A DNA stretch of 28,489 nt. Source: a virus. Below the pieces are notes generated by a model. The model was not told the DNA's origin. It did no database searches and worked only from the letters and a program-made list of their open reading frames with translations. Every line of letters begins with the position of its first letter. Position 1 is the stretch's first letter. The DNA lies in IMG/VR virus record IMGVR_UViG_3300036828_000573, positions 1-28,489 of that record; one strand, written 5' to 3'. The position numbers were made by a program, and so were the translations under genes. Shown piece after piece: positions 8,312 to 21,665 of this stretch.

Positions 8312-9223
8312 CTACACACCACTCAACAGGCACACAGCGTAGGGCTGGTCCAGGCCGATGGCGCTGGCCCGCTGGGTGTCCGAGCGCCAGGTCTTGCGCG
8401 GCTCGTCGCGGTAGAGCGGACCGGCCAGGAACGGCAGCTCGTCGGCGTAGAAACCGGCGCGGTGCCGCTGCATGACGATCGCGTTACCCGCCGGGACCTG
8501 CCGGGAGACCAGCACGTCCAGGTTGAAGATCTTCTGCGGCAGCACGCCCGTGTAGAGCAGGTTCTCGGACGCGATGTCGCCGATGTACGGGGCGGCGAAG
8601 GTCGAGGACTGCAGCAGCGTGTTCTTCGTCGCGTGGTTGATGATCAGCGTGTCGGCCTCGAAGCCGAGCCACTGCGTGACACCCGACGGCGAGACGATGT
8701 TGCTGTTCTCGACCAGGTAGCACGCCTGGGCGATGTCCGCGCGGATCGTCGCCGCGGCCGAGGCCCAGGTGTTGGACACCGCGAGGGTCTGGATCGAGGC
8801 GTTGGCCACCACGGCCGAGTAGAACGCGGTGTTCCACGAGTAGACCATGGTGTTCTTGACCTGGAGCAGCTGGCGGGTGACCGGGTCGATGGTCTGGCGT
8901 CGGCGCATCTCGTCCGAGACCATGATCGCCATGGCGCGCTCGTGCGTGAACACGACGCGCGGGATGCCGATGGACGTCGGAACGACCGGGACCTCGCCGA
9001 ACTCGGGCCGGACCTCGGGGTAGTCGTCCGCGTACAGCGGCGTCGACTCCGAGTACCGCACGGCGCCGCTGGGCGCGGCGCCTCCGTTGCGCAGCACCGA
9101 GTCCACGATGAACTCGTTCTGCGTGATGTCCAGGATCAACGCGGGGATGACCAGCGGATCCTTCAGCAGCTCATTGACTGTGATTCGTGGTGCGTCGGAA
9201 TATCCGCGAGCGCCTGCAGGCAT
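8312..9223 (-). CDS. Major capsid protein (HK97 fold, Mu T-like)
   Basis: 303 residues, ATG with GGGGAG upstream. An upstream in-frame extension lacks a good start. Length fits Mu T-like major capsid proteins, which lack the large N-terminal delta domain because a separate scaffold is used. Characteristic features are an N-terminal arm (RGYSDAPRITVNELLKDP), the E-loop region (GEVPVVPTSIGIPRVVFTHERA), a long spine helix (MRRRQTIDPVTRQLLQVKN) and a P-domain/A-domain with strand-rich C-terminal sequence (IFNLDVLVSRQVPAGNAIVMQRHRAGFY). Decoration and protease/scaffold genes lie immediately upstream, as expected. Confidence 0.88.
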   Translation of the reverse strand: MPAGARGYSDAPRITVNELLKDPLVIPALILDITQNEFIVDSVLRNGGAAPSGAVRYSESTPLYADDYPEVRPEFGEVPVVPTSIGIPRVVFTHERAMAIMVSDEMRRRQTIDPVTRQLLQVKNTMVYSWNTAFYSAVVANASIQTLAVSNTWASAAATIRADIAQACYLVENSNIVSPSGVTQWLGFEADTLIINHATKNTLLQSSTFAAPYIGDIASENLLYTGVLPQKIFNLDVLVSRQVPAGNAIVMQRHRAGFYADELPFLAGPLYRDEPRKTWRSDTQRASAIGLDQPYAVCLLSGV

Positions 9224-9237
9224 GTTGTCACTCCCCT

Positions 9238-9741
9238 CTAGAAGATCCGGGCCCGGCCCAGGAAGTAGGTCGAACCGCCGATAAGCGTGTTCGCGACGAG
9301 CTGGCCCGCCGCCACGCCGCCGGGTTGCGTGCACCTACCGAAGATCACCTTCGGATCGGTGCCGCTGCCGTTGGAGATCACGGTGCCAGGTGTGGTGGCG
9401 CTGTGCGTCAGCAGGTCACCCTCGGAGACGATGCCGTTGTACCAGACCCAAATGTCCACCCCGCCGTAGTAGACGGAGGTGTAGTCGTCCAGCACGCTGA
9501 TGTCGATCGCGGGCTGGCCGTACGAGTTGGCCGACCCGGTCTGCACCGAGATGACGTTCGCGTCCTTGCCCGCCACGCCCAGTACATATTGGGACGACCC
9601 CGCTGCGACCGGGCACGGTGCCACGGTCAGGTCGGTGGTCGAGCCGATGGTCGTCGGGCGGACGATCATACCGCCGATGACCAGCGTGGAGACCTGCTTG
9701 TTCAGTGGACCTTGCTTGTAGTGCGGGAGAACCGCGCTCAT
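9238..9741 (-). CDS. Capsid decoration protein (DUF2190-like)
   Basis: 167 residues, ATG preceded by GAGGAGG-type purine tract. Beta-rich with conserved-looking turns: VLGVAGKDANVISVQTG, an aromatic segment (DDYTSVYYGGVDIWVWYNG), then SEGDLLTHSATTPGTV and the C-terminal GRCTQPGGVAAGQLVANTL. 'Gly-Arg-Ala/Cys-...-Gly...vaaGqlv' in the C-terminal half is typical of DUF2190-type decoration proteins that stabilise the shell. Placement right before the capsid gene agrees. Confidence 0.75.
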   Translation of the reverse strand: MSAVLPHYKQGPLNKQVSTLVIGGMIVRPTTIGSTTDLTVAPCPVAAGSSQYVLGVAGKDANVISVQTGSANSYGQPAIDISVLDDYTSVYYGGVDIWVWYNGIVSEGDLLTHSATTPGTVISNGSGTDPKVIFGRCTQPGGVAAGQLVANTLIGGSTYFLGRARIF

Positions 9742-9963: not shown

Positions 9964-11142
9964 CTACATCCCGAACATCTGGGCGCGGGCGCGTCCCACG
10001 ACGTCGTCACGGGCCTGCGCTGCCTCGCTCTGGCGGTCGATGGGCTCGTCCATCGCCGAGCCGAGCTCGACCGACATGTCCATCATCTTGGCGGCCTTGG
10101 CGAACTCGGTGAGCACCTTGCGCATGACCTGCCCAGCGTCCACCGACTTGCCGTTCGACAGGTCGACGGTCTTCCCGGTGCCCTCGAGCAGCGGGCGGGC
10201 CATCTCCACGATGAAGGGCGGAACGCCGGAGTCGCGCACCAGGCGCGCCCGCTCGGCCTCGTACCGCTGCGTGTCCAGCTCGGAGATGACCACCGAAAGC
10301 TGGCGGTCGGTCTCGTCGGCCCGGACGTTGGCCATTTCGATCGCCATGGCGGCCTCGTTGGACAGCCCTGGCGCAGCGGCGGCGACCTCGAGCTGGAACT
10401 CCTGCTCGAGAGCGGCCAGATCCTCGTCGGACATGTTGCCGACGAGCTGTGCCAGCTCCTCGTCGGTCAGCTCGGTGGACCCTGCGCCCTCGCCGGTCAG
10501 CAGGTTCTCCGACCCGGCGATGGCCGCGAGTGCGTCGATCTTGTCTTCGGGGATCTGGAGCAGCTTCGCGAGCCGCCCGCGCTCCTCCGTCGTGAACGTG
10601 TCGGTCACTGCTGTCTCCTGACCCGTGAAAACGGATGTTGAAAGGTCCAGGACCATGTTGACGTCGTTGGACGCCTCGACGGCCTGCCAGCCGCCCAGTC
10701 CGGGGATGCGCGGGTCGAGGGTGCCGAGCACGTGCTGGACGGCCGCGGAGAAGAACTTGCCGTCGCTGCGCGCGTAGTCCTCCACGATCCGGGCGGACAC
10801 CCCGAGGTTGGGGTTCTCCTTCAGCACCTGCGCGCCGCGCTCGGTGGCCGCGAGCTTGATATACAGCCCGTCGTCGCCCAGCTCGAAGTCGGTGACCGCG
10901 CCGCCGAACCGCTCGACGTCGTTGGTGTGGCTGTTGTCGCTCCCGGCCAGCTGGAACGGGACCTGGTCGTAGGCGCGGTCGCGGAAGGACTGGACCAGAC
11001 CGGCCAGGTAGTCCTTGGTGAAGTGCAGCATCCGGCCCTTGTACTCGACATCGCCGACGGGCAGCACGCGCTTGCGCCACATGCTGTTGCCCAGTTCGAC
11101 GGCCCTGGCGCCGGTGAACGGGGTCAGGACGGCCGTGGTCAC
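9964..11142 (-). CDS. Capsid maturation protease fused to scaffold (Mu gpI-like)
   Basis: 392 residues from GTG in a GTGA junction. Residues 20-155 form the protease: PFQLAGSDNSHTND with candidate catalytic His72, GAVTDFELGDDGLYIKL, and NLGVSARIVED with candidate nucleophile Ser116, as in gpI-type capsid proteases. From about 170 to 340 the chain is Glu/Gln/Ala-rich and helical (ELTDEELAQLVGNMSDED, EAAMAIEMANVRADETD), matching an internal scaffold. The C-terminus (RARAQMFGM) is basic and could bind the capsid. The scaffold directs shell assembly, and the protease then clears it. Lacking is a check of the third catalytic residue. Confidence 0.85.
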   Translation of the reverse strand: MTTAVLTPFTGARAVELGNSMWRKRVLPVGDVEYKGRMLHFTKDYLAGLVQSFRDRAYDQVPFQLAGSDNSHTNDVERFGGAVTDFELGDDGLYIKLAATERGAQVLKENPNLGVSARIVEDYARSDGKFFSAAVQHVLGTLDPRIPGLGGWQAVEASNDVNMVLDLSTSVFTGQETAVTDTFTTEERGRLAKLLQIPEDKIDALAAIAGSENLLTGEGAGSTELTDEELAQLVGNMSDEDLAALEQEFQLEVAAAAPGLSNEAAMAIEMANVRADETDRQLSVVISELDTQRYEAERARLVRDSGVPPFIVEMARPLLEGTGKTVDLSNGKSVDAGQVMRKVLTEFAKAAKMMDMSVELGSAMDEPIDRQSEAAQARDDVVGRARAQMFGM

Positions 11143-12140
11143 GAAGACGCCTTTTTGAAACTACCGGCGCCCATGTTCTGGGCGCGCTTGGCGAACGCGA
11201 GGGCGCGCTCCGGCGGGAACCCGCGGGCCTTGAGCTTGGCGTAGATCGCCTTGCCCTTGGGGCTCAGCCCGTCCGTGTTCTCGCCGCCCGCGCCCATGGA
11301 GGTGACGCGCGGTCCGTCACCGGCCGAGTTCGACGGGTTGGCCAGCGCGCTGATCGCCGGGACGCCGAACCTCTCCATCAGCGGGGTCTGCTCGGGCGCC
11401 TGGGCGTACGGCACCCCGGCCTTCTCGGGCGCCTTCGCCGCGCCGTTCCAGGTGCCGAGCAGCTCCATGAGCGCGGACCGCTGGTGCGGGTGCCCGGTCA
11501 GCTTCGCGCCGGTGGCGGTCTGGGCCGCCCAGCTGCCGTCGTCCCCGCGCTTGATCGTCCCGATGTCCATGCCGCCGCGGCGGTGGCGCACCTGCGCGCT
11601 GCCGTCGGCCGCGCGGCTGACCAGGATGTCCCACGGACTGATGACCGGGAGCTTCTGCGCCAGGGACACGGCCCGGCCGCCGGTGTTGGACTGGGATCCG
11701 TAGTTGCCGGTCTTCGACCCGACGCCGAGGCGCTGTGCCTGGAAGCCGGTCGAGTGCTGTCCGCCGTCCTGCGGGGTGCGCAGCTTCGGCGAGCAGTTCT
11801 CGGCATCGCTGACACCGCCGGACGTCGAACTGCCCTCGCGCATCTCACCCCGGGGGCTGTAGCCGCCCGCCATGCCGTCGTGCGTGTGCGCGAGGGACGC
11901 GAAGTCGTGGCTGTGCGTCACGACGTGGCTGTGGCTGTAGCCGCCCTCTTCCGAGGCGAGACCGAGTGCGTTGCTGTGCGAGTGGGCCGACAGCTTCGCC
12001 ATGCCCTTGCGCCCGTACTTCTTCCGGCCGATGAAGGCGGCCAGCCCACCCGGGTTGCTCGCACCCCTCGCGGCAAGAGCACCCTTCAGCTTGGCGAAGT
12101 TGGCTCCTGATCCGGGCGGGGCTCCGGCGTACGTCGCCAT
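11139..12140 (-). CDS. Large head-region structural protein with a His-rich segment
   Basis: 333 residues, ATG with GGAGG eight bases upstream. The N-terminus (NFAKLKGALAARG, then NPGGLAAFIGRKKYG) and C-terminus (GKAIYAKLKARGFPPERALAFAKRAQN) hold the short helical units common in actinophage minor head and protease-associated proteins. Between them lie a His-rich segment at residues 52-85 (SHSHVVTHSH, HTHDG) and a compact beta/alpha domain around VRHRRGGMDIGTI, GHPHQRSALMELLGTWN. The His cluster could bind metal. It directly precedes the protease/scaffold gene (GTGA overlap), so a head role is likely, but no enzymatic function is claimed. Confidence 0.75.
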   Translation of the reverse strand: MATYAGAPPGSGANFAKLKGALAARGASNPGGLAAFIGRKKYGRKGMAKLSAHSHSNALGLASEEGGYSHSHVVTHSHDFASLAHTHDGMAGGYSPRGEMREGSSTSGGVSDAENCSPKLRTPQDGGQHSTGFQAQRLGVGSKTGNYGSQSNTGGRAVSLAQKLPVISPWDILVSRAADGSAQVRHRRGGMDIGTIKRGDDGSWAAQTATGAKLTGHPHQRSALMELLGTWNGAAKAPEKAGVPYAQAPEQTPLMERFGVPAISALANPSNSAGDGPRVTSMGAGGENTDGLSPKGKAIYAKLKARGFPPERALAFAKRAQNMGAGSFKKASS

Positions 12141-12221: not shown

Positions 12222-12407
12222 TTACGAACCGCCGTACTCGGTCCTGTCGGCCTCCGGCTGGAGGTGCCTGCTCTGCAGCTCCTCCGCCAGCGCCAGGGCC
12301 ACGGCCTTGCGCTTGTCCTCAGGCATATCCGCGTAGCCAGGGGGGATACTCAAAAACTCCCGGTGCGGAGTGCTCGGTGACTGAGCCTCCGGTGCCTGCT
12401 GTGTCAA
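12222..12407 (-). CDS. 61-aa hypothetical protein, TTG start, overlaps the 1121-aa gene
   Basis: A TTG seven bases after a strong GGAGGTAAGG ribosome-binding site gives a 61-aa reading frame. Its first 89 bases overlap the 3' end of the 1121-aa gene in another frame. The first half is polar (TQQAPEAQSPSTPHRE); the second is helical (DKRKAVALALAEELQSRHL). An ATG nearer the end of the large gene would give 34 residues but has no ribosome-binding site. An 81-base spacer with only a weak hairpin follows before the next gene. No family is recognised. Confidence 0.6.
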   Translation of the reverse strand: MTQQAPEAQSPSTPHREFLSIPPGYADMPEDKRKAVALALAEELQSRHLQPEADRTEYGGS

Positions 12408-15400
12408 TTTCCTTACCTCCAACCACGTCCCAGATGGCCACCTGGTCGCGCGCCTTCCCTGCCCTGATCGCTTCGCCCTGGTCGGCGATGTTCTCCGACG
12501 GGTCCAACCACAGTTTACCGTCAGACACCCATCCGCCGAGGTGGGCGTTGGGGTTGTTCTTGAACACCTCGCGCTCGTCCATCAGGAACTTGTCGATCGC
12601 CGCGGCCAGCTGGTGCTTGTCCTTCATGACAGAATCCGGATACTGATGAGTGTGTCCGGGCAGGGACACCATGTAGCCGTGGCTCGGCGCCTTGCCCGTC
12701 TTAGGGTCCAGAGAGAACCCCTCCGGCTTCACATGCTCGGCTAGCGCGGATCCGCCGCCGCCGCCCTTGGTCCACCGGCCCTTCGCGTCCCGGAGCTCGA
12801 GAGCCCACTCCATGGCGATCTCCAGGGTGTCGTCCACGTCGTGAAGCATTGACAGCGCCGTGGTGCCCGACGCGGTCTGGATGTTGTTCGCCTGGGCGTG
12901 GGAGATCCACTTCTTCCAGGCGTTGGCGGTGGCGGTGGCCCGCCCCTTGGCGGCGCTGGACTTGTTCGCGGCATCCTCGGCGTCGTTGGCGGACTGCTGC
13001 ACGAGCCAGGTGATCGCCTGCATCTGGCTCGGGCTGATCGTCCTGCCCTCGCGCTTGCTGGCTGCGACCGCGGCCTTTCGGTACTCGTCTGCGACGACCT
13101 GGTAGTACCGGTCGTCACCGATCGGCGGCTTCTCCTTGTCGCCGAGACGCTCACCGGCCGCCACGCTCAATGCGTGCCGGTCGATCACCACCTCGCCGTA
13201 CGGGTCGTGCGGGCTGTCCTCGCCCTTCTGCTCGATGAGCTTGGCGAACGCGTTGGTCTTGGGCGCGGGCAGGGCCTCGTCGAAGCTCTTGCCGTCCATG
13301 ATCTTCTGTGCGGCGTTGGCGTGCGATGTCATGGCGGTCGTGCCCTCGCCCGGTCCGATCGGCCGTCCCAGTTCGACCGACCGGGCCGCGTTGAACATGT
13401 TGACCGGCCAGGAGGTCTGCGGCGAGTAGGCCGAGAGCAGACCGGCGCCCTTGTGCTGGTCGCCGTGTGCGATGGCCCCGGCCACCAGACCGGCGTCTGC
13501 GTACCAGCGCATGCCCTGCGCCTTCTGCCCTTCGCTGGCCATCGAGTAGGCGTGCAGCACGTGCTCCGCCTTCATCGGGTGCGCCTTGAAGAACGGGTGG
13601 TCGGACGGGTCCGGATACGACGAGCGCGGATTGATCAGCCGCGCGTGCGGAGGCACCTTGTACGCGGGCTCGGGGGATCCGCTCGGCCCGCCGGGCGAGC
13701 GCGACCACTCGCCGTGCGCGCCGCGCATCTCGTGCATCCAGTTGTCCTGGAACTTGCCGAGCTCGACGGCCTGGCCGGTTATGGTGCCGGACTCACCACT
13801 GCGGAAAGGGGGCGGCTCCGAGGACTCGTCGGCGAACTGGATGGTGTTGATCTGCTCGGTGATGTTGCCCGGCGAAGGTGCCTGCGTCAGCCGCCAGCCC
13901 TCGGTCTGCATCCACTGGTCGACCATCGACTGGGCCGTCTGCTGCGCGACGTCGGGGCTCAGGCCCTCCTTCATCAGGACGGTGGCCAGCACCTCGATGG
14001 CCTGCTCGGTCACGTCGCCCGGCTCGTTGGACAGCTGCTGAGGATTGGGCCTGCGGGGGTTGAGCGTCTGCAGGGGGTGCGCGACGAACCTCGCGCCCTT
14101 GCCCCGGGCCGCCACGTGGAACTCGGCGACCTCACCGGCGACGCCGTGCAGCAGGGGGATCGCGAGCGCGACGCTGACCGGCAGCGCGGCTCCGGCCGTC
14201 AGCGCGGCGATGACCACTCCGACGGTCAGCACCCCGATCCGCACCGCCAGCCTGGCCCTCGGCTCGGTGTGCTTCTCACCCTCCACCTGATCGCGCAGCT
14301 TCTTGATCTCATCCAGGGCCTTGCCGACTTCCTTGTCGGTGTACACCCGTTGCTGCGTGTAGACGCTCGCCGCCACCTTCACGTTCGACGCGGACGCAGC
14401 GCGCATCGATGCCGGGGGCGGCGCTGCGCTGGGCGCGTGCGGCGCGCGCATCGAGGCCGTGTGCGGAGCGCTGATGCGGACCCCGCCCGAGGAGTGCGAG
14501 GCGGCGTGGTACGAGGAATCCATGTGCACGAAACGGCCGTTCGGACCCCGGGGGTGCACGGACGAGTCGAACGACAGCGCCAGGGCCTGGCTGGAGATGT
14601 TCTCCATCGACAGATCCTCCTTCTTTGTCAGCTCCTTGAGGAAACCGGCCTCCTGCGGATAGTTATCGGCGATATGTTCGGCGAGCTTGCGCGCGTGCTC
14701 GTGCGCGCCGTGCGTGTGCTTCTCGGCGTGGTCGGCGTCGAAGTTCCAGGCCTTGTCATCCGTGTCGGCGAGCATCGCGGTGGAGTGCCGCCGGGCGTGC
14801 GCCCCGTCGTACTTGATCGTCTGGAGCAGGTGGGCGAACGACGCGGCCTTGGTCACCGGGTTGACCGACTTCGACATCTCCACGGGCCCGCCGCCGAGCG
14901 GGTACCGCATCACGTCGGAGCCGCGGTGCACCGTCAGGTGGGTGAACGTCACCGGGGTCGGCGGCACGGGGTCCGGCAGCGGCTCGCCGGGGTCCAGCAT
15001 CGCCAGGGTGACGTGGGGCCGCCAGTCTTTGTGCTGGCTCGCGGAGAGGTCTTCCAGCGCGCTGCGGATGCGCTCCGCCCCGGGCAGCACGACACCGGCC
15101 CACGCGGGCGTCATGCCCTCGTCGTCCGGCGGGAACGTACCCACCCCGCCGACCGTGCCGGACAGCGGGCCGGGCATCGCGAACGCCGCCTCCCGGGCCC
15201 GGCGGCACGCCTCGGCGTATGCCTCGTCGTCCACGTCCTTGCCGAGGTAGACCACCGTGATGTGGTGGTCCTCGACACCGTTCGGCGTCGTTGGGATCGT
15301 CCCCGGCGGAATGTCCAGAGAGATCATTCCCGACCGCTTGTTCAGGCTGTATCCCGCCAGGTCCATCACCTGGTTCAGCGCTGCCCACTCGGCCGCCTCG

Positions 15401-15684
15401 GCCGGGTAGTGCGCCATCATGTTGTCCTTGAGCAGTTCGGCCTGCTCCATGGCCGACTTCAGGTGGTTGTCGTAGTGCAGCGTGTGGTAGCGGCGCATGT
15501 CGCCGCCGGACTTGCGCGCGGCCTTCATGCGCTCCTCGGCGTGTGCCAGCTCGTTGCCGATGTCGTTGACCATGTGCGCGGTGGACATCGCCACCGCAGC
15601 CCGGTCGGCGGGCACCGGTGGCAGGTCGTGCAGCGCGCCGCCGACGTCCTTGGCGCCCGTGTTCATCTGGCTGCTGATGCTCAC
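12319..15684 (-). CDS. 1121-aa modular head-region protein with 2H phosphoesterase signature
   Basis: Starts at GTG in a GTGA junction with the 461-aa gene. Residues 137-255 contain the two HxT motifs of 2H (LigT-type) phosphoesterases, H141-I-T143 in HHITVVYLG and H224-V-T226 in RPHVTLAML, 83 residues apart as expected. Two similar helical segments flank this domain (78-103 and 327-352, both with YP-x-EA). Residues 479-517 are strongly hydrophobic. Residues 676-850 (SPQTSW, LPAPKTNAF, VVIDRHALS) resemble DUF7178-type phage sequences and loosely the HhH-GPD glycosylase pattern. Residues 995-1096 (LGGWVSDGKLWLD, EAIRAGKARDQVAIWD) match a domain seen in phage minor capsid proteins. Three RxxxGR[FW]-like motifs mark module borders. 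Likely virion-associated; function unproven. Confidence 0.85.
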   Translation of the reverse strand: MSISSQMNTGAKDVGGALHDLPPVPADRAAVAMSTAHMVNDIGNELAHAEERMKAARKSGGDMRRYHTLHYDNHLKSAMEQAELLKDNMMAHYPAEAAEWAALNQVMDLAGYSLNKRSGMISLDIPPGTIPTTPNGVEDHHITVVYLGKDVDDEAYAEACRRAREAAFAMPGPLSGTVGGVGTFPPDDEGMTPAWAGVVLPGAERIRSALEDLSASQHKDWRPHVTLAMLDPGEPLPDPVPPTPVTFTHLTVHRGSDVMRYPLGGGPVEMSKSVNPVTKAASFAHLLQTIKYDGAHARRHSTAMLADTDDKAWNFDADHAEKHTHGAHEHARKLAEHIADNYPQEAGFLKELTKKEDLSMENISSQALALSFDSSVHPRGPNGRFVHMDSSYHAASHSSGGVRISAPHTASMRAPHAPSAAPPPASMRAASASNVKVAASVYTQQRVYTDKEVGKALDEIKKLRDQVEGEKHTEPRARLAVRIGVLTVGVVIAALTAGAALPVSVALAIPLLHGVAGEVAEFHVAARGKGARFVAHPLQTLNPRRPNPQQLSNEPGDVTEQAIEVLATVLMKEGLSPDVAQQTAQSMVDQWMQTEGWRLTQAPSPGNITEQINTIQFADESSEPPPFRSGESGTITGQAVELGKFQDNWMHEMRGAHGEWSRSPGGPSGSPEPAYKVPPHARLINPRSSYPDPSDHPFFKAHPMKAEHVLHAYSMASEGQKAQGMRWYADAGLVAGAIAHGDQHKGAGLLSAYSPQTSWPVNMFNAARSVELGRPIGPGEGTTAMTSHANAAQKIMDGKSFDEALPAPKTNAFAKLIEQKGEDSPHDPYGEVVIDRHALSVAAGERLGDKEKPPIGDDRYYQVVADEYRKAAVAASKREGRTISPSQMQAITWLVQQSANDAEDAANKSSAAKGRATATANAWKKWISHAQANNIQTASGTTALSMLHDVDDTLEIAMEWALELRDAKGRWTKGGGGGSALAEHVKPEGFSLDPKTGKAPSHGYMVSLPGHTHQYPDSVMKDKHQLAAAIDKFLMDEREVFKNNPNAHLGGWVSDGKLWLDPSENIADQGEAIRAGKARDQVAIWDVVGGKEIDTAGTGGSVTEHSAPGVFEYPPWLRGYA

Positions 15685-17066
15685 AGTGCCGCCGCCTGCT
15701 TGGTCAGCGCAGCCGCCTGGGCCAGCGTGCTCTTGACCTGCTGCTGCAGCCACTTGCCCTGGTCGCCCTTGCTCATGCCCGACGTCGCCGCCTTGAACTT
15801 CGCATGGGCGATGCTCGCCGGGGTCTGCTTAGCCGGGGTAGTCTTCTTCGCCGGGGTGGCGGACGCGGTTTTTCCGGTCGCACCGGCCGCGGTCGCCGCC
15901 GCGGTGGCCGTGGCGGCCTTCTTCGCCGTCGCGGCCTTCGCCTTCCCGAGCGCGACGAGCATCTTGCCGTACTCGGCGGCCAGCGCACGGTCCTGGGCGG
16001 CCTGGGCCAGCAGCTGCGCCTTCTTCGCGGCCTTCTGCTGGGCTGTCTGCGCACCGGCGGGCGCGGAGCCTCCACTGCCGAACGTCCCCAGCACAGTGCG
16101 CGGGTCCTGCGCCGCTCCGGCCGCGGTGCCGGTCAGCTCGATCTGCCGGACCACGTCGCCCCAGGTGATCGAGTGCGCGTGTCCGTGCTTGGTGGCCTCG
16201 TCGGCCAGGGCTCCGGCCGCCGCCGCACGGACCTCACCGTGCTTGCTCTTGGCCCGCCACCGGCGCAGCGCGCCCCAGGCCACGGCCGACGCCTGCCCCT
16301 TGCTCATGCCCCGCTTGTCCATCAGGGCCTTGACGATCTGCTCGAAGTAATCGGAGTGCTTCTGGCCCTTGACCCCGTACAGTCCCGGCCCGCCGGGCTT
16401 GCCGTAGGGCGCGGGCGTGACCGCGAGCATGCCCGTGCGGGTGGACAGCTCGATCAGCCGGTCGAGGTCCGACCAGGACAGCACCGCCTGCGGCATCGGG
16501 CGCCCCGGGAGCTGCGTCTCCGTCCGGCTCGGCGCCTTCGGTCCACCGGCCACGGCCCGGTCGGTGCCGGTATTCTGCTTCGGGGCCGGGACCATGGCGG
16601 CCTTCGTCGACTTGGGGAAGCCGGGCCCGCCGTCCGGCCCGGCCGCGCCGGGGAGCTTCGTCGGGTTCATGGAGCTGCCGAGCGGCAGGTTGCTGGGCTG
16701 GGTGAAGGTGGCAGGCGTGGCCTTGACCGACTCGTTGTGACTCTCGCCGTCCTGAAGGTCGCTGACCAGCAGGTGGTGCCTGTTGATCAGGTCCATGTTG
16801 ACCTTGGCCTTCGACTGCCCGTCGTCGTCCAGGACGCCGTGGCGCATCAGCGACATCGGCGTCATGGTGTGCATGGCAGCCTGCAGGTGCCGCTTGGCGC
16901 CGTCGTGGTTACCGGACTCGAGCGCGTGCGCGGCGTCGCGCAGGTGCTGCGGCGCGGCCATGCCGGGCAGCTCCTCGTCGATCTTCCCGGCCAGGGACCG
17001 CATTCCACTGGCCGTACGCTGCTTGAGCTGCGAGAGCGGTACGGGTGTCTTGCGTGCGAATGTCAC
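15681..17066 (-). CDS. 461-aa head-region structural protein
   Basis: GTG start with GGGAGGG six bases upstream. Residues 1-110 are helical with clustered His (HLRDAAHALESGN, AAMHTM, INRHHLL). A Pro/Gly-rich linker runs to about 200. Residues 205-300 hold a helical domain with KGQASAVAWGALRRWRAKSKHGEV and ALADEATKHGH, the unit that in actinophage minor head proteins reads 'alkk.Gms.s.A.aiA..alkrW'. The C-terminal 140 residues are Ala/Lys/Thr-rich and probably disordered, DNA-facing or linker-like. It shares a GTGA junction with the 1121-aa gene, so the two products may be made in similar amounts. No catalytic motif seen. Confidence 0.78.
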   Translation of the reverse strand: MTFARKTPVPLSQLKQRTASGMRSLAGKIDEELPGMAAPQHLRDAAHALESGNHDGAKRHLQAAMHTMTPMSLMRHGVLDDDGQSKAKVNMDLINRHHLLVSDLQDGESHNESVKATPATFTQPSNLPLGSSMNPTKLPGAAGPDGGPGFPKSTKAAMVPAPKQNTGTDRAVAGGPKAPSRTETQLPGRPMPQAVLSWSDLDRLIELSTRTGMLAVTPAPYGKPGGPGLYGVKGQKHSDYFEQIVKALMDKRGMSKGQASAVAWGALRRWRAKSKHGEVRAAAAGALADEATKHGHAHSITWGDVVRQIELTGTAAGAAQDPRTVLGTFGSGGSAPAGAQTAQQKAAKKAQLLAQAAQDRALAAEYGKMLVALGKAKAATAKKAATATAAATAAGATGKTASATPAKKTTPAKQTPASIAHAKFKAATSGMSKGDQGKWLQQQVKSTLAQAAALTKQAAAL

Positions 17067-17076
17067 GGTTCCCTCC

Positions 17077-17676
17077 CTAAGCGGGGATGAGCTCGCCGTT
17101 GCGGATGAACCCGTGCCAGCCGCTCGGTTGGCTGTGCCAGATGGACGGGGTTACGTCGATCATCGGCGGAGTTCCGTTGACTGTCCAGAACCCGCCGCCA
17201 CTGGCCGCCTGGCTGGTGACCCACTCGCCGCCGTCCGGCAGCTGGATGCGCCACGACTCGACGTGCTGCGGGTGCCGGACGGACATGTAATGGTCGGCCC
17301 ACGGCAGGCGGCACATCGTACCGGCTGGGACCTGGCTTATATCGCCCCAGAGCACGAACTCGACGCCGTCCGGGCGCCGGTAGAGCGCGTTGTCGTTGCG
17401 CTGCCACTCGTCGGTGTCCGCGAACCGGTACCCGCAGTGCGCGCACTGCTCCGGCCAGCGGTGGTCGTCGTGTGTCCAGTTGTCCCCGTGGACCAGCTTG
17501 GACTCGGACTCCGGAACGTTGCCGATCACTGTGAAGGCGTCGTGCCCGGCCTGCCAGGTGGCCGTCGAACGGCCCGGGCACGTGTTGCCGCCGTCCCTTG
17601 CGCTGCCCCAGGTGAACCGGCGCAGGTTTCTCTGGTACTCGCCGGTGAGTTCTGCGATGACCAGCGGAATTCCCAC
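17077..17676 (-). CDS. DUF6527-like hypothetical protein with CxxC pair
   Basis: 199 residues, GTG start after AAGGAAGG. A CAHCGYRF segment at 78-85 and Cys33 suggest a small metal-binding site. The C-terminal half (VPAGTMCRLPWADHYMSVRH, then PDGGEWVTSQ, NGTPPMIDVTPSI, SGWHGFIRNGELI) follows the pattern I associate with DUF6527 phage proteins, which end in W/Y-HGfi..G.l. Its function is unknown. The gene lies between the gpF-like protein and the 461-aa protein, so it is expressed with head genes. Could instead be a moron-type gene; codon use looks like the neighbours. Confidence 0.7.
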   Translation of the reverse strand: MGIPLVIAELTGEYQRNLRRFTWGSARDGGNTCPGRSTATWQAGHDAFTVIGNVPESESKLVHGDNWTHDDHRWPEQCAHCGYRFADTDEWQRNDNALYRRPDGVEFVLWGDISQVPAGTMCRLPWADHYMSVRHPQHVESWRIQLPDGGEWVTSQAASGGGFWTVNGTPPMIDVTPSIWHSQPSGWHGFIRNGELIPA

Positions 17677-17692
17677 AACGCACCTTCCTTCG

Positions 17693-18376
17693 TCAGGCGG
17701 ACGGCAGCAGCCGCGCGCCGGGGAACGGCTTGACCGGCGTACACCGGCACTTCGCGTGCACGGTGCCGGGAAACCCGATCAGCGGCATCGCGTCGGCCCG
17801 GAAGTTCTTCCCGTCGGCCGCCAGGCAGTCCGGGGTGACCCGGTCGTCGTCGTGGGCGCGCCAGCCGAGCAGCAGCCCGTACTGCATCGCCGCCATGTCG
17901 ACGGCCATCGCGGCCTTGGATCGGTTCCACATCGCGTCCCGGTGCATGCCGTAGTACCGCCGCTCGCGCTGCACCGCGTCGAGCAGCGCCTGCGCCACGC
18001 TCTCGCCCTGCGCGCGCGCCTGCTTCACGTCGGCGGAGACGCGCCGGGCGATCGAGAGGAACATCTGCCCGCGCCGGACCCGGTTGAGCCGGTCGATCTG
18101 CATGGTGGCCGGTCCGGCGATGCCGGTCACCTCGGGAGGCATGGACATGACGACCTCGGCCGCCGCGTGCAGGGTCAGCTGGTCGATGCCCGCCTGGATG
18201 TACATCCGCGCCAGCAGAGCGACGGCCGCAGGGCCGCCTATGGCCACTCCCAGCGCCGCCGTGGCCGCCGCTGCCAGGGTCGCGTCGCTAGGCCCGGTGT
18301 AGACCGGCGGTGGCGGCGGGGGCGGTACCTGCTGTCCCTGCTGCTGTTGCTGCTGCGGCTGTGTGGTGGTGGTCAT
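17693..18376 (-). CDS. Minor head protein, Mu gpF / SPP1 gp7-like
   Basis: 227 residues, ATG in an ATGA overlap with the portal gene. A Gln- and Pro-rich N-terminus (residues 6-25) looks like a flexible linker. The middle is helical with an Arg-rich stretch (IDRLNRVRRGQMFLSIARRVSADVKQAR). The C-terminus carries the family signature: HDDDRVTPDCLAADGK and then FPGTVHAKCRCTP, with the conserved His-Ala-x-Cys-Arg-Cys. These proteins bind the portal and the capsid interior and help head morphogenesis or DNA ejection. Immediate downstream position of the portal is the standard location. Confidence 0.88.
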   Translation of the reverse strand: MTTTTQPQQQQQQGQQVPPPPPPPVYTGPSDATLAAAATAALGVAIGGPAAVALLARMYIQAGIDQLTLHAAAEVVMSMPPEVTGIAGPATMQIDRLNRVRRGQMFLSIARRVSADVKQARAQGESVAQALLDAVQRERRYYGMHRDAMWNRSKAAMAVDMAAMQYGLLLGWRAHDDDRVTPDCLAADGKNFRADAMPLIGFPGTVHAKCRCTPVKPFPGARLLPSA

Positions 18377-19971
18377 GGCCTGGGCGGAGCCTGGCCGCCC
18401 GCTCCGAGGCGGGACGGTGCCGGAGGCGGTGTCGGCGGTCCGGCCGGTACGCCGCGCAGCCCCTCGGGCACGCCGCCCTGCTTCTGGGCGGCCTGCTTGG
18501 TCAGGTTCTGCGCCGCGCCGACCAGGCCCTGCACCGCTCCGAGGCCGCCCGCCGCCGACGGCGGCATCCCCGGCGGTGGCTGGGACGACAGCTGCTCGGA
18601 CCGCTGCTGCACGGTCGAGACCAGCGCCTGGTGCACCTGGTCGATGGGCAGCTGCAGGATAGAGGCCATCCGCTCGGTGATCAGGTCGAGCACCGGGACG
18701 GGGATGTGCAGCGCGGGCGCCGCGGCCAGCTGTCCGAACAGGGTGAGCAGCGCTTGGAGCTGCTCGTCCTGCAACGGGCCGAACCGCCAGGTGGGGAACG
18801 CAGCTCCGGGGCCGTAGTTCAGCATGACCAGCGGACGGATGACGTCGTAGGTGAGCGACTCGGCGATCTCCTTGGCCACGGCCTGCCGTGACTTGAGGAA
18901 GAACGCGCTCTGGTCCTGGCTCAGCGAGTACGCGCCCTTGCCGCCGGTTCCGCCGCTGACCAGGCCCATGAACCCGGCCAAGACCGACTGCGTCTGCCAG
19001 CCCTCCAGGAACATCATGGCCTCGGAGAAGAACGCGCCGACGTTGGTTCCCTGCGGGATGGTCTCGAAGGCCTTCTTGCCGTCGGTCGGGTGCACCAGGC
19101 CGACCACTCCGGCGCCCTTGAGCTGGGAGATGTCGTCCGCCCTGGCGTTGGCCTCGGGCTGGTCGTTCCCGTAGACGATGATCCTCTGCATCGCCTGGTT
19201 CTCCAGGAAGTAGTACCAGAGGAACAGCAGTTTCATCTTGGTCTGATACACCCAGTAGCTGACGTCCATCTCGGACACGCCGATCAGCGGCTCGCGGTGC
19301 TTGCCGTTGGTGTGGATGTAGGACCGCACCTTGGGGATGTCGACGTAGCCGGGGACCTTCTGCTCCTTGGTGAGCATCAGGTTGCCGCCGAACAGCCACA
19401 CCTGCTGCCGGAAGCCGTTCGGCACCGCGGTGCGCGAGTTGTACCGCGCCTGGCAGGTGGCCGGTGGCCGGAAGGCGATCTTGTCGTAGACGACCCTGCC
19501 GTCGGACTCGCGGACCTTCCACACCTTCTCGAAGAACGCGCGCCGGTATACCTGGGCGCTGGTGACCTGGCCGACGAGCTCGCGGATCGGGGTGGACATG
19601 CCGCCCTCGATGTCCGGCGTGCTGATCACGCTGTTCACGAAATCGGTCTCGCCCTGGTCGCCCTTGGACGGCTCGATCGACACCTCGGCCTCGCGGATCG
19701 GCAGGGTGAGCACCGACTCGACGGCCGAGCAGATGCCGTCCCTGCGGAACATCGCCTTCATATCACGGGCGGTGTACTCCCCGTAGTCGAAGACGTCGCC
19801 CTCGCCGTACCACGCGAACAGCCGCTGCCCCAGGTCGAACTGGGTGCCCATCTCCTTGCCGAGCAGCTCGCGCTTGGACGATGTCTTGATGTCCGGGAAC
19901 GCCAAGATCTTCGCCGAGCTGCCGTCCGTCGGCGGAGGCACCGCGTTGAATCCACCCTGTCCCTTTGCCAC
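18373..19971 (-). CDS. Portal protein
   Basis: 532 residues. GTG chosen because GGAGG lies six to seven bases upstream; in-frame codons further upstream lack a site. The dodecameric portal forms the DNA channel and the terminase docking site. Residues 75-105 (DMKAMFRRDGICSAVESVLTLPIREAEVSIEPSKGD) match the start of DUF935/Mu gp29-type portals. The core is mixed alpha/beta, with the wing and clip around FFEKVWKVRESDGRVVYDKI and LLFLWYYFLENQAMQRIIVYGND. The C-terminal 80 residues are Gln/Pro/Gly/Ala-rich. Terminase upstream and gpF-like downstream confirm the role. Confidence 0.88.
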   Translation of the reverse strand: MAKGQGGFNAVPPPTDGSSAKILAFPDIKTSSKRELLGKEMGTQFDLGQRLFAWYGEGDVFDYGEYTARDMKAMFRRDGICSAVESVLTLPIREAEVSIEPSKGDQGETDFVNSVISTPDIEGGMSTPIRELVGQVTSAQVYRRAFFEKVWKVRESDGRVVYDKIAFRPPATCQARYNSRTAVPNGFRQQVWLFGGNLMLTKEQKVPGYVDIPKVRSYIHTNGKHREPLIGVSEMDVSYWVYQTKMKLLFLWYYFLENQAMQRIIVYGNDQPEANARADDISQLKGAGVVGLVHPTDGKKAFETIPQGTNVGAFFSEAMMFLEGWQTQSVLAGFMGLVSGGTGGKGAYSLSQDQSAFFLKSRQAVAKEIAESLTYDVIRPLVMLNYGPGAAFPTWRFGPLQDEQLQALLTLFGQLAAAPALHIPVPVLDLITERMASILQLPIDQVHQALVSTVQQRSEQLSSQPPPGMPPSAAGGLGAVQGLVGAAQNLTKQAAQKQGGVPEGLRGVPAGPPTPPPAPSRLGAGGQAPPRP

Positions 19972-20018
19972 GGTGCTCCTCCGCTGGTGATCGATGGTTG
20001 AAGGATAGCGCTGACAGG

Positions 20019-21665
20019 TCAGAGCGGCGATGAGCTCGAAGACCACGAGCGCACGTTGCCGCGCCCGCTGGTTTCGTGCACGTCGTCAGGGTCCTGCGGA
20101 CCCCACTCGTCCAGGCCGTCGAATCCGTCCGACATGGCCGACTCGTGGCGCAGCCGGGCGCGCAGCCCGCGCGGGACGGTGGACTCCTCCTGCTGCGGCG
20201 GGGCGATCGGGTCTCCGCCGCGCTCGCGCTCCAGGGGCACCGCGTTCGCCAGCTCTCCGCCCTGGCGCGTCCACTTCGCCACCAGCGCGCGCTGCACCGG
20301 CCCGAAGCTCATCGACAGGAACGGGTGGCAGCACCACACCAGGGAGTCGAGCCGGTCCGGGGACCGCTCGTCCTTGCCGCCGGTGAAGGTGGCCATCTGA
20401 TCTTCGAGGTCGACGAACGGGCCTCCGGCGTGCTTCACCACGCCGCGCTCGTACAGGCCGGACAGCGGCTCGGCGCGGGTGCGCTTGGACTCGCTCGCGT
20501 GGACCTTCTCCACCCGCACGCGCTTCTTGAGCACGCCGCTCTTCAGCAGATCCTTCTGGATCTGCTCGATCAGGTCCATCATCCACTGGCCGCCGTGGTT
20601 CTTCTCCACCACGACCGTGGCGTCCAGCTGGGCGGCCCGGATCAGGAAGCGCTTGGCGAACGGCGCCGGTGCCTCCTGGCCGCCCCAGGACTCGACCACG
20701 TAGACCTCGTCGCGGTGCGGGCCGAGCCCGGCCACGGTGTATGCCTGCTCGTCGGACTCCTCGCTGCCGTCGGACGGGTCCACCCCGATGCGCACGGACG
20801 TCAGGTAGTCGGGGCCGCCGTCCGCGCCGACGGCCGGGCACTGCGCGGCGTTGAGCGTCTCGCGGGTCCACAGCGAGTTGGCCACGTCGTCGAGCAGCTC
20901 GCCCTCGAGCTCCTGGCGTTCGAGCCGGGTTCCCTTGGCCATGCCGACGACGGAGCGGACGAACGCCTCGGACAGGTTCTTGATGTTGTCCGTGGTCTTC
21001 AGCCGACGCACGATCACCGGGCCGTCGGCGAACTCGTCGTCTCCGCGGCTGGCTTTGATCAGGCGCCGCACCAGTGCGCGGGCCGGTCGGGACGCCTTGG
21101 GCGTGCCGGTGACGATGATCTTGGATTCGCCCTTGCGGACCGCGAACCTGATCGACTCCTCCCAGGCCACCTTCCAGCGCTTCCACAGGCCGATCTCGTC
21201 GCACCACGCCGCGCTGAGGTTCTTGCCCTGGACCCGCAGTGCGCCGTCGTCGGCGGAGTCGACGTAGATCACGTGGCCGCTGCGCAGCCCGATCTCGCCG
21301 TAGCTGCGGTACGCGTACTCGACCGTGCGGGACAGACCGTGCTTGACCTCGCCCGCCGTCGTGCCGAGCGCCTTGAGAATCCCTGCCTCGCCCTCGACGC
21401 ACACCGTCCAGGCGTCCCGGTAGGTGGGCGCGATGATCGCGTACTCACTGTGCAACTCGTGGTCGTCTTCTATGATCTCGGCGAGACCCGAGGATCCGGA
21501 CCTGGTCTTGCCGCTGCCACGGCCGCCCTGGAAGTAGATCACGCGCCAGTCGCCCTCGGGCAAGGTCTGCTCCGGGCGCGCGTCGCGCCGCCAGCGCGCA
21601 CGAGCGGACTCGACGACCGTGTTGGGGTCCAGCCGCCGGGCCCATTCCTTCAGGAGGCTCGCCAT
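20019..21665 (-). CDS. Terminase large subunit
   Basis: 548 residues, ATG start; GGAGG sits 12 bases upstream, a rather long spacing. ATPase domain: Walker A GGRGSGKT at 47-54, Walker B AAWCDE with Asp156-Glu157, coupling motif TGTPK at 186-190. RNase H-like nuclease: Asp296 in GVDPSDG, Glu354 in VEKNHGG, and Asp437/Asp440 in SPDRLDSLVW. It cuts concatemeric DNA and drives it into the head through the portal encoded next. The C-terminus is a Ser-rich tail. No small subunit gene is recognisable upstream in this window. It begins a new unit after a hairpin terminator. Confidence 0.95.
   Translation of the reverse strand: MASLLKEWARRLDPNTVVESARARWRRDARPEQTLPEGDWRVIYFQGGRGSGKTRSGSSGLAEIIEDDHELHSEYAIIAPTYRDAWTVCVEGEAGILKALGTTAGEVKHGLSRTVEYAYRSYGEIGLRSGHVIYVDSADDGALRVQGKNLSAAWCDEIGLWKRWKVAWEESIRFAVRKGESKIIVTGTPKASRPARALVRRLIKASRGDDEFADGPVIVRRLKTTDNIKNLSEAFVRSVVGMAKGTRLERQELEGELLDDVANSLWTRETLNAAQCPAVGADGGPDYLTSVRIGVDPSDGSEESDEQAYTVAGLGPHRDEVYVVESWGGQEAPAPFAKRFLIRAAQLDATVVVEKNHGGQWMMDLIEQIQKDLLKSGVLKKRVRVEKVHASESKRTRAEPLSGLYERGVVKHAGGPFVDLEDQMATFTGGKDERSPDRLDSLVWCCHPFLSMSFGPVQRALVAKWTRQGGELANAVPLERERGGDPIAPPQQEESTVPRGLRARLRHESAMSDGFDGLDEWGPQDPDDVHETSGRGNVRSWSSSSSPL

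Follow-up and report, generated by a model that had tools for sequence, protein, structure and literature searches.

A 1121-aa protein encoded in the head operon of a virus contig (hereafter the window, the whole stretch of 28,489 bases that was analyzed, with 68% G+C) contains a genuine 2H phosphoesterase domain, which looks catalytically intact. The association of this domain with phage heads was strongly supported by the sequences of its relatives, and virus particles probably contain it. We tentatively favored the view that the protein is head cargo of an actinobacteriophage-like phage, and that its injected 2H enzyme could remove nucleotide signals.

The head operon was located on the minus strand of the window and extended from the terminase to the major capsid protein:

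20019-21665, minus strand: terminase
18373-20046, minus strand: portal protein, Mu type (PF06074, E 3.6e-32; phrog_113)
17693-18376, minus strand: MuF-like minor head protein of 227 aa, assigned by position and by conservation in relatives, without a family match
17077-17676, minus strand: DUF6527 protein (PF20137)
15681-17066, minus strand: uncharacterized protein
12319-15684, minus strand: multi-domain head-module protein with the 2H domain, 1121 aa, a reading frame with a GTG start
11139-12140, minus strand: second uncharacterized protein
9964-11142, minus strand: capsid protease/scaffold-like protein, an assignment from its position, the character of its sequence and its relatives, without a family match
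8312-9253, minus strand: major capsid protein (phrog_1650, E 2.8e-73; PF25209)

The GTG start of the 1121-aa protein shared four bases (GTGA) with the stop of the upstream gene, and the start was therefore considered well placed. The DUF6527 gene was inserted between the MuF-like gene and the gene at 15681-17066; it was present in some relatives and absent from others. PADLOC gave no match. An earlier sequence-only reading had placed the 1121-aa protein among portal, scaffold and capsid genes, in agreement with its portal, MuF-like, protease/scaffold-like and major capsid neighbors. The following features were located within the protein:

15256-15264, minus strand: catalytic motif 1, H141-I-T143, invariant in 53 of 53 homologues
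15007-15015, minus strand: catalytic motif 2, H224-V-T226, followed by Met229 at the position of LigT Arg130
14881-15351, minus strand: 2H phosphoesterase domain, residues 112-268 (PF13563/PF02834, AlphaFold2, Foldseek, VIA-align)
14530-14550, minus strand: junction motif RGPNGRF
14119-14256, minus strand: hydrophobic stretch between the 2H and DUF7178 modules, residues about 477-522, read from the sequence
13705-13725, minus strand: junction motif RGAHGEW, immediately in front of DUF7178; the separate DUF7178 protein of locus L012 begins at the matching point
12973-13641, minus strand: DUF7178 region, residues 682-904 (PF23802, E 2.6e-36)
12772-12792, minus strand: junction motif RDAKGRW
12418-12606, minus strand: C-terminal conserved region, residues 1027-1089 (phrog_17808, no functional assignment)

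Metal-independent phosphodiesterase activity is a trait of the 2H phosphoesterase superfamily. The two HxT motifs of the domain, which are 83 residues apart, occupied one half each of the 2H fold. The sequence-only reading had noticed these motifs, assigned them to the 2H/LigT superfamily and put the domain at 14920-15297; the motifs and the assignment were confirmed and the location stood, but the limits did not, the true domain being slightly wider. The HxT/S pattern alone is weak evidence, because it occurs five times in the 1121-aa protein. With the domain alone as the query, the scores were 27.7-28.8 bits for PF13563 (cut-off 27) and 26.1-26.8 bits for PF02834 (cut-off 23.3); with the whole protein they were 25.6 and 19.7 bits, respectively, both slightly below the cut-offs. 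These profile matches were above chance, and the domain is real.

A structure prediction and the conservation of both histidines had been proposed as checks on the assignment, and both bore it out. The AlphaFold2 model of the domain, built with 53 homologues, displayed the full 2H fold (pLDDT 93.1, pTM 0.87) and was matched to solved structures by Foldseek and VIA-align. In the VIA-align comparison the best solved match was the Deinococcus CPDase 5h7e (Z 15.6), followed by Thermus 1iuh, Pyrococcus 1vdx and E. coli LigT (Z about 14). The best solved matches were RNA 2',3'-cyclic phosphodiesterases (Z 14-15.6), and next came Usb1 (14.1), rotavirus VP3 (11.4), Acb1 (10.7) and the poxvirus cGAMP PDE (10.2). 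The family profile ranked proteins alike by sequence, with values of 1e-9 to 1e-7 for CPDases and related proteins and of 0.05 to 0.4 for Acb1.

Seven residues (H141, T143, L147, G148, F184, H224, and T226) were invariant in the 53-row alignment of phage homologues. This set was gathered with HxT-containing patterns, which biases the conservation counts for at least one motif, and a separate check was therefore made on 12 cultured phages found by overall similarity with tblastn. Both motifs were kept in all 12. Motif 1 reads HCT in Chidiebere and DalanDe, and motif 2 reads HCT in GMA6. The dN/dS of the domain (a simple NG86 estimate) was 0.17 against L009 and 0.20 against L010, the two closest relatives, which indicated purifying selection. 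In LigT, Arg130 keeps the phosphate and the attacking water in place (PMC5283653). This position was occupied by Tyr in 51 of the 53 homologues, as it is in T4 Acb1 (PHITLSY), and by Met only in the window and in the 89% identical L009. The phage family therefore differs from standard ThpR, and the window is in turn a slight exception in its own family. Single-protein searches of viral contigs recovered at most one close relative, and an alignment of six sequences was needed to find more. Scanning of the genome contigs with the close alignment gave no matches; a second scan gave 11 loci, six of which (L112 and L114-L118) resembled ordinary cellular ThpR.

Among 80 viral loci with the 2H domain, the portal was found in the same polypeptide in 31 and a MuF-like domain in 20, while 10 carried a NUDIX domain and seven an ADP-ribosyltransferase-like domain; these counts came from phmmer searches started from Pfam-identified segments. 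The portal fusion was backed by Pfam in L015, L022, L032, L035, L037, L042, and L046, L022 being a hair under the portal cut-off. Homologues of head genes were present in 66 of the 80 loci, some of which are short. Proteases were fused to the domain as well: an S78-like prohead protease in the Streptomyces prophages L108, L110, and L111 (phrog_80, head maturation protease, in L108), and the XkdF protease in Arthrobacter phages (Laroyevirus gp18). In 12 cultured phages (Edmundo, Kovu, Waltz, Pupper, HyRo, Dexdert, Chidiebere, ValentiniPuff, Cantare, Ottawa, DalanDe, and Stultus) the 2H gene lay downstream of the annotated portal or MuF gene, either next to it or a few genes further on; in GMA6 the large gene upstream of the 2H gene carries no annotation. 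The fusions and the gene order together upheld the head association that had been proposed. The 2H domains of the window and L022 were 65% identical, while the portals belonged to PF06074 in the window and to PF04860 in the L022 fusion, with no detectable similarity between the two. This indicated that the domain travels between unlike heads and yet stays in the head module, which pointed strongly, if indirectly, to a module associated with the virion. A literature search found no virion proteomics of a 2H head protein and no activity data for any member, and no 2H head protein was seen in the accessible part of the Omega virion protein list (PMC3706429).

Some loci showed further peculiarities. 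The portal-2H polypeptide of L042 (5213-10465) also had Hint/intein-like matches (PF13403, PF14890), and in L015 intein-bearing models matched weakly in the stretch that separates two portal pieces. The protein at 2390-10804 of L059 comprised 2805 aa with two 2H, four rifampin-ADP-ribosyltransferase-like and two GNAT-like domains.

The 1121-aa protein is modular by comparison with its close relatives, which either lack the DUF7178 part or have a separate gene for it. Of the whole protein, L009 and L021 kept just the 2H part and stopped about 110 residues past the domain; L010 combined the 2H domain, a GNAT-like stretch, DUF7178 and the C-terminal part; L012-L014 had two genes, the second of which started at the point corresponding to GTITGQAVELGKFQDNWMHEMRGAHGEW in the window. 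The DUF7178 model (AlphaFold2, pLDDT 90.4) was matched best by OGG2-type DNA glycosylases (Z 10.7-11.4) in VIA-align, with the queuine salvage enzyme DUF2419 at Z 8.6. The top 25 matches were all glycosylases, queuine salvage enzymes (DUF2419) or 1xg7, after which Z dropped to 2.6; Foldseek alone gave no match at E<=0.001. With moderate confidence, DUF7178 was predicted to have an HhH-type DNA-glycosylase-like fold, and some DUF7178 proteins are already annotated as glycosylases in phages. A lysine and an aspartate were invariant in DUF7178 (K128 and D154 in the numbering of the modeled stretch), and it also occurred alone in many Streptomyces and Microbacterium phages.

A motif resembling HPRDxxGR[FW]xxGG recurred between modules of the head polyproteins, with three copies in the window and three in L010. 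Two proteins of L079 (8222-12769 and 13332-19427) had five and seven copies, respectively, and the motif was also found in Edmundo gp18 (L002, 8761-9873). In the ORFs of the 80 loci it was observed 72 times, against about 29 expected in shuffled ORFs. A second short tag, [IV][ST]xQ[AILM], marked the termini of the 2H protein and of its relatives L009, L011, L012, and L021, as well as the borders between their modules; in the window it was found at 14575-14598 and 13759-13782 and at residues 3 and 608. Five copies were observed in the 1121-aa protein against 0.18 expected, for a pattern chosen after the fact. This tag could be a prohead-protease site or a packaging signal. The protease-like protein had a related [QR]A[VI]EL[SG] core close to residue 13, and the protein at 15681-17066 had one as well, but the window's portal, terminase and capsid proteins did not.

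We favored an enzyme that is injected and acts on nucleotides, because the catalytic residues are invariant, the gene lies in the head module, and NUDIX and ADP-ribosyltransferase-like domains are frequent partners, which themselves point to nucleotides. The 1121-aa protein would be built into the head with the portal and the protease, and would enter the cell along with the DNA. There the 2H domain would cleave either a cyclic phosphate or a phosphodiester that adjoins a 2'-OH. As a guess, the likeliest targets may be soluble nucleotide signals or their products (cyclic oligonucleotides, ADP-ribose derivatives), and the signals would be erased in the first minutes of infection. The rarity of RNA-repair partners and the Tyr shared with T4 Acb1 were counted toward this reading; the closer sequence and fold similarity to ThpR/LigT than to Acb1, together with the Met of the window, were counted against it. 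A broader proposal, which we consider unlikely, is that 2H serves actinophage-type heads as a widespread and exchangeable enzyme cartridge, which moves between unlike portals but remains in the portal-to-capsid cassette and is attached by the short junction tags RDxxGRW and ISxQAxEL, and that virions are preloaded with a 2H, NUDIX and ADP-ribosyltransferase signal eraser before phage gene expression.

The same matches to RNA 2',3'-cyclic phosphodiesterases and Usb1, the nearest in both fold and sequence, speak for a head-carried RNA end-processing enzyme, which would open the 2',3'-cyclic phosphates that abortive-infection nucleases of the host leave behind on tRNA or other RNAs, or would trim RNA as Usb1 does; a Usb1-like RNase is also one of the two proposals for the MuF and portal fusions in the accessible text of PMC5512222 (2017). 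We held this explanation to be doubtful, since among 21 long 2H-bearing contigs, which may be fragments, RtcB scored over its cut-off in one and RNA_ligase and KptA in none, LigT Arg130 is replaced by Tyr or Met, and the ThpR equivalog score was 18.1 bits against a cut-off of 65.7, on which ThpR (TIGR02258) membership was rejected.

Two other explanations were considered. The position between portal and capsid genes, which hardly varies among dissimilar phages, and the fusion to portal, MuF and proteases would also suit a part that head assembly needs for contact with the portal or scaffold, and whose catalysis is secondary or missing. This is quite unlikely, as all four catalytic residues are invariant, and the occurrence of the domain beside portals of different Pfam families argues against a fixed structural contact. 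Finally, the Met that only the window and L009 have in place of the Tyr of the other 51 homologues may have left the domain of this phage weakly active or shifted in substrate; with the HxT tetrad intact and the low dN/dS between the two sequences, we regarded this as very unlikely. The nucleotide-signal reading remained our tentative preference.

When a phage encodes an enzyme that erases immune nucleotides in an ordinary gene, the enzyme can be made only once infection has begun; a virion-borne 2H enzyme, if true, would act before phage gene expression. It would also explain the "RNA ligase" annotation beside the portal in many actinophage head cassettes. The cultured members grow on M. smegmatis, Gordonia, and Arthrobacter hosts, which makes the proposal directly testable. 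The general idea, a 2H domain fused to MuF or portal that is injected and destroys nucleotide signals, is already in print, as far as the accessible text of PMC5512222 (2017) and PMC9503650 (2022) goes; the idea of virion delivery in the sequence-only reading is therefore sound but already published for the class. New here are the wide range of fusions, the unvarying gene position, the occurrence beside portals from different families, and the Arg-to-Tyr signature by which the phage family is set apart from ThpR.

Among known systems, Acb1 cleaves 3'3'-cGAMP and related cyclic oligonucleotides, and a comparable action on signal nucleotides has been proposed for the phage 2H domain. Acb1 (T4 57B; PF23474; PDB 7t26, 7t27; described in PMC9117128) belongs to the same superfamily, and motif 2 of most relatives, PHxTLxY, resembles the T4 PHITLSY. 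However, Acb1 is a small separate protein that ranks lower in fold, with a similarity confined to motif 2. The specific suggestion of an anti-CBASS, Acb1-like enzyme was not supported: the window domain had no Acb1 profile match and membership was rejected. PF23474 matched 16 of the 53 relatives weakly (best E 1.1e-4, against 8e-16 for PF13563). T4 Acb1 scored 11.9 bits against the family profile, around motif 2 only, while cellular ThpR-like proteins scored 42-48 bits, and profile-profile comparison with the single T4 Acb1 sequence gave no alignment. As regards the base-stacking residues of the Acb1 cGAMP pocket and its C-terminal lid (Y12, W74, F107, W147, and E141 in FBB1), the T4 Acb1 profile alignment spans motif 2 only.

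ThpR/LigT proteins (TIGR02258; PDB 5h7e, 5ldi, 1iuh, 1vdx) are closer in fold and share a motif 1 of the H-x-T-L-x-[YF]-L-G type and the HxT/HxT tetrad; they differ in that the window domain is under their cut-off, has another residue in place of the Arg, and is built into a phage head-module protein. The nearest cultured counterparts, Laroyevirus gp18 (Arthrobacter phages Edmundo, Salgado, and Laroye), gp92 of Gordonia phage Pupper and gp87 of Mycobacterium phage HyRo, are annotated as RNA ligase or capsid maturation protease. Their 2H domains were 27-32% identical to that of the window, with both HxT motifs, and the genes had the same position between portal/MuF and capsid. However, gp18 is fused to the XkdF protease, gp92 and gp87 stand alone, and DUF7178 was seen in none of the three.

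The polyvalent proteins offered a close parallel. In its accessible text, PMC5512222 (2017) reported 2H domains both within phage polyvalent proteins and as fusions to MuF or portal, and suggested that they act as RNases or break down counter-invader nucleotides; the available part of the 2022 survey (PMC9503650) considered such 2H proteins likely to be packaged and injected. The 2H protein of the window differs in being separate from the portal and in having the DUF7178 and phrog_17808 modules, a combination with 2H that was not seen in the accessible portions of either paper. It resembles those systems, as far as they are described there, as a multi-domain head-module protein of a portal-terminase phage, with a 2H domain beside other enzyme-like domains and the same predicted delivery. 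Unlike domains (2H, the glycosylase-like DUF7178 and phrog_17808) are joined in one polypeptide whose gene sits among late head and packaging genes, and the 1121-aa protein is a new member of this class with an uncommon domain combination.
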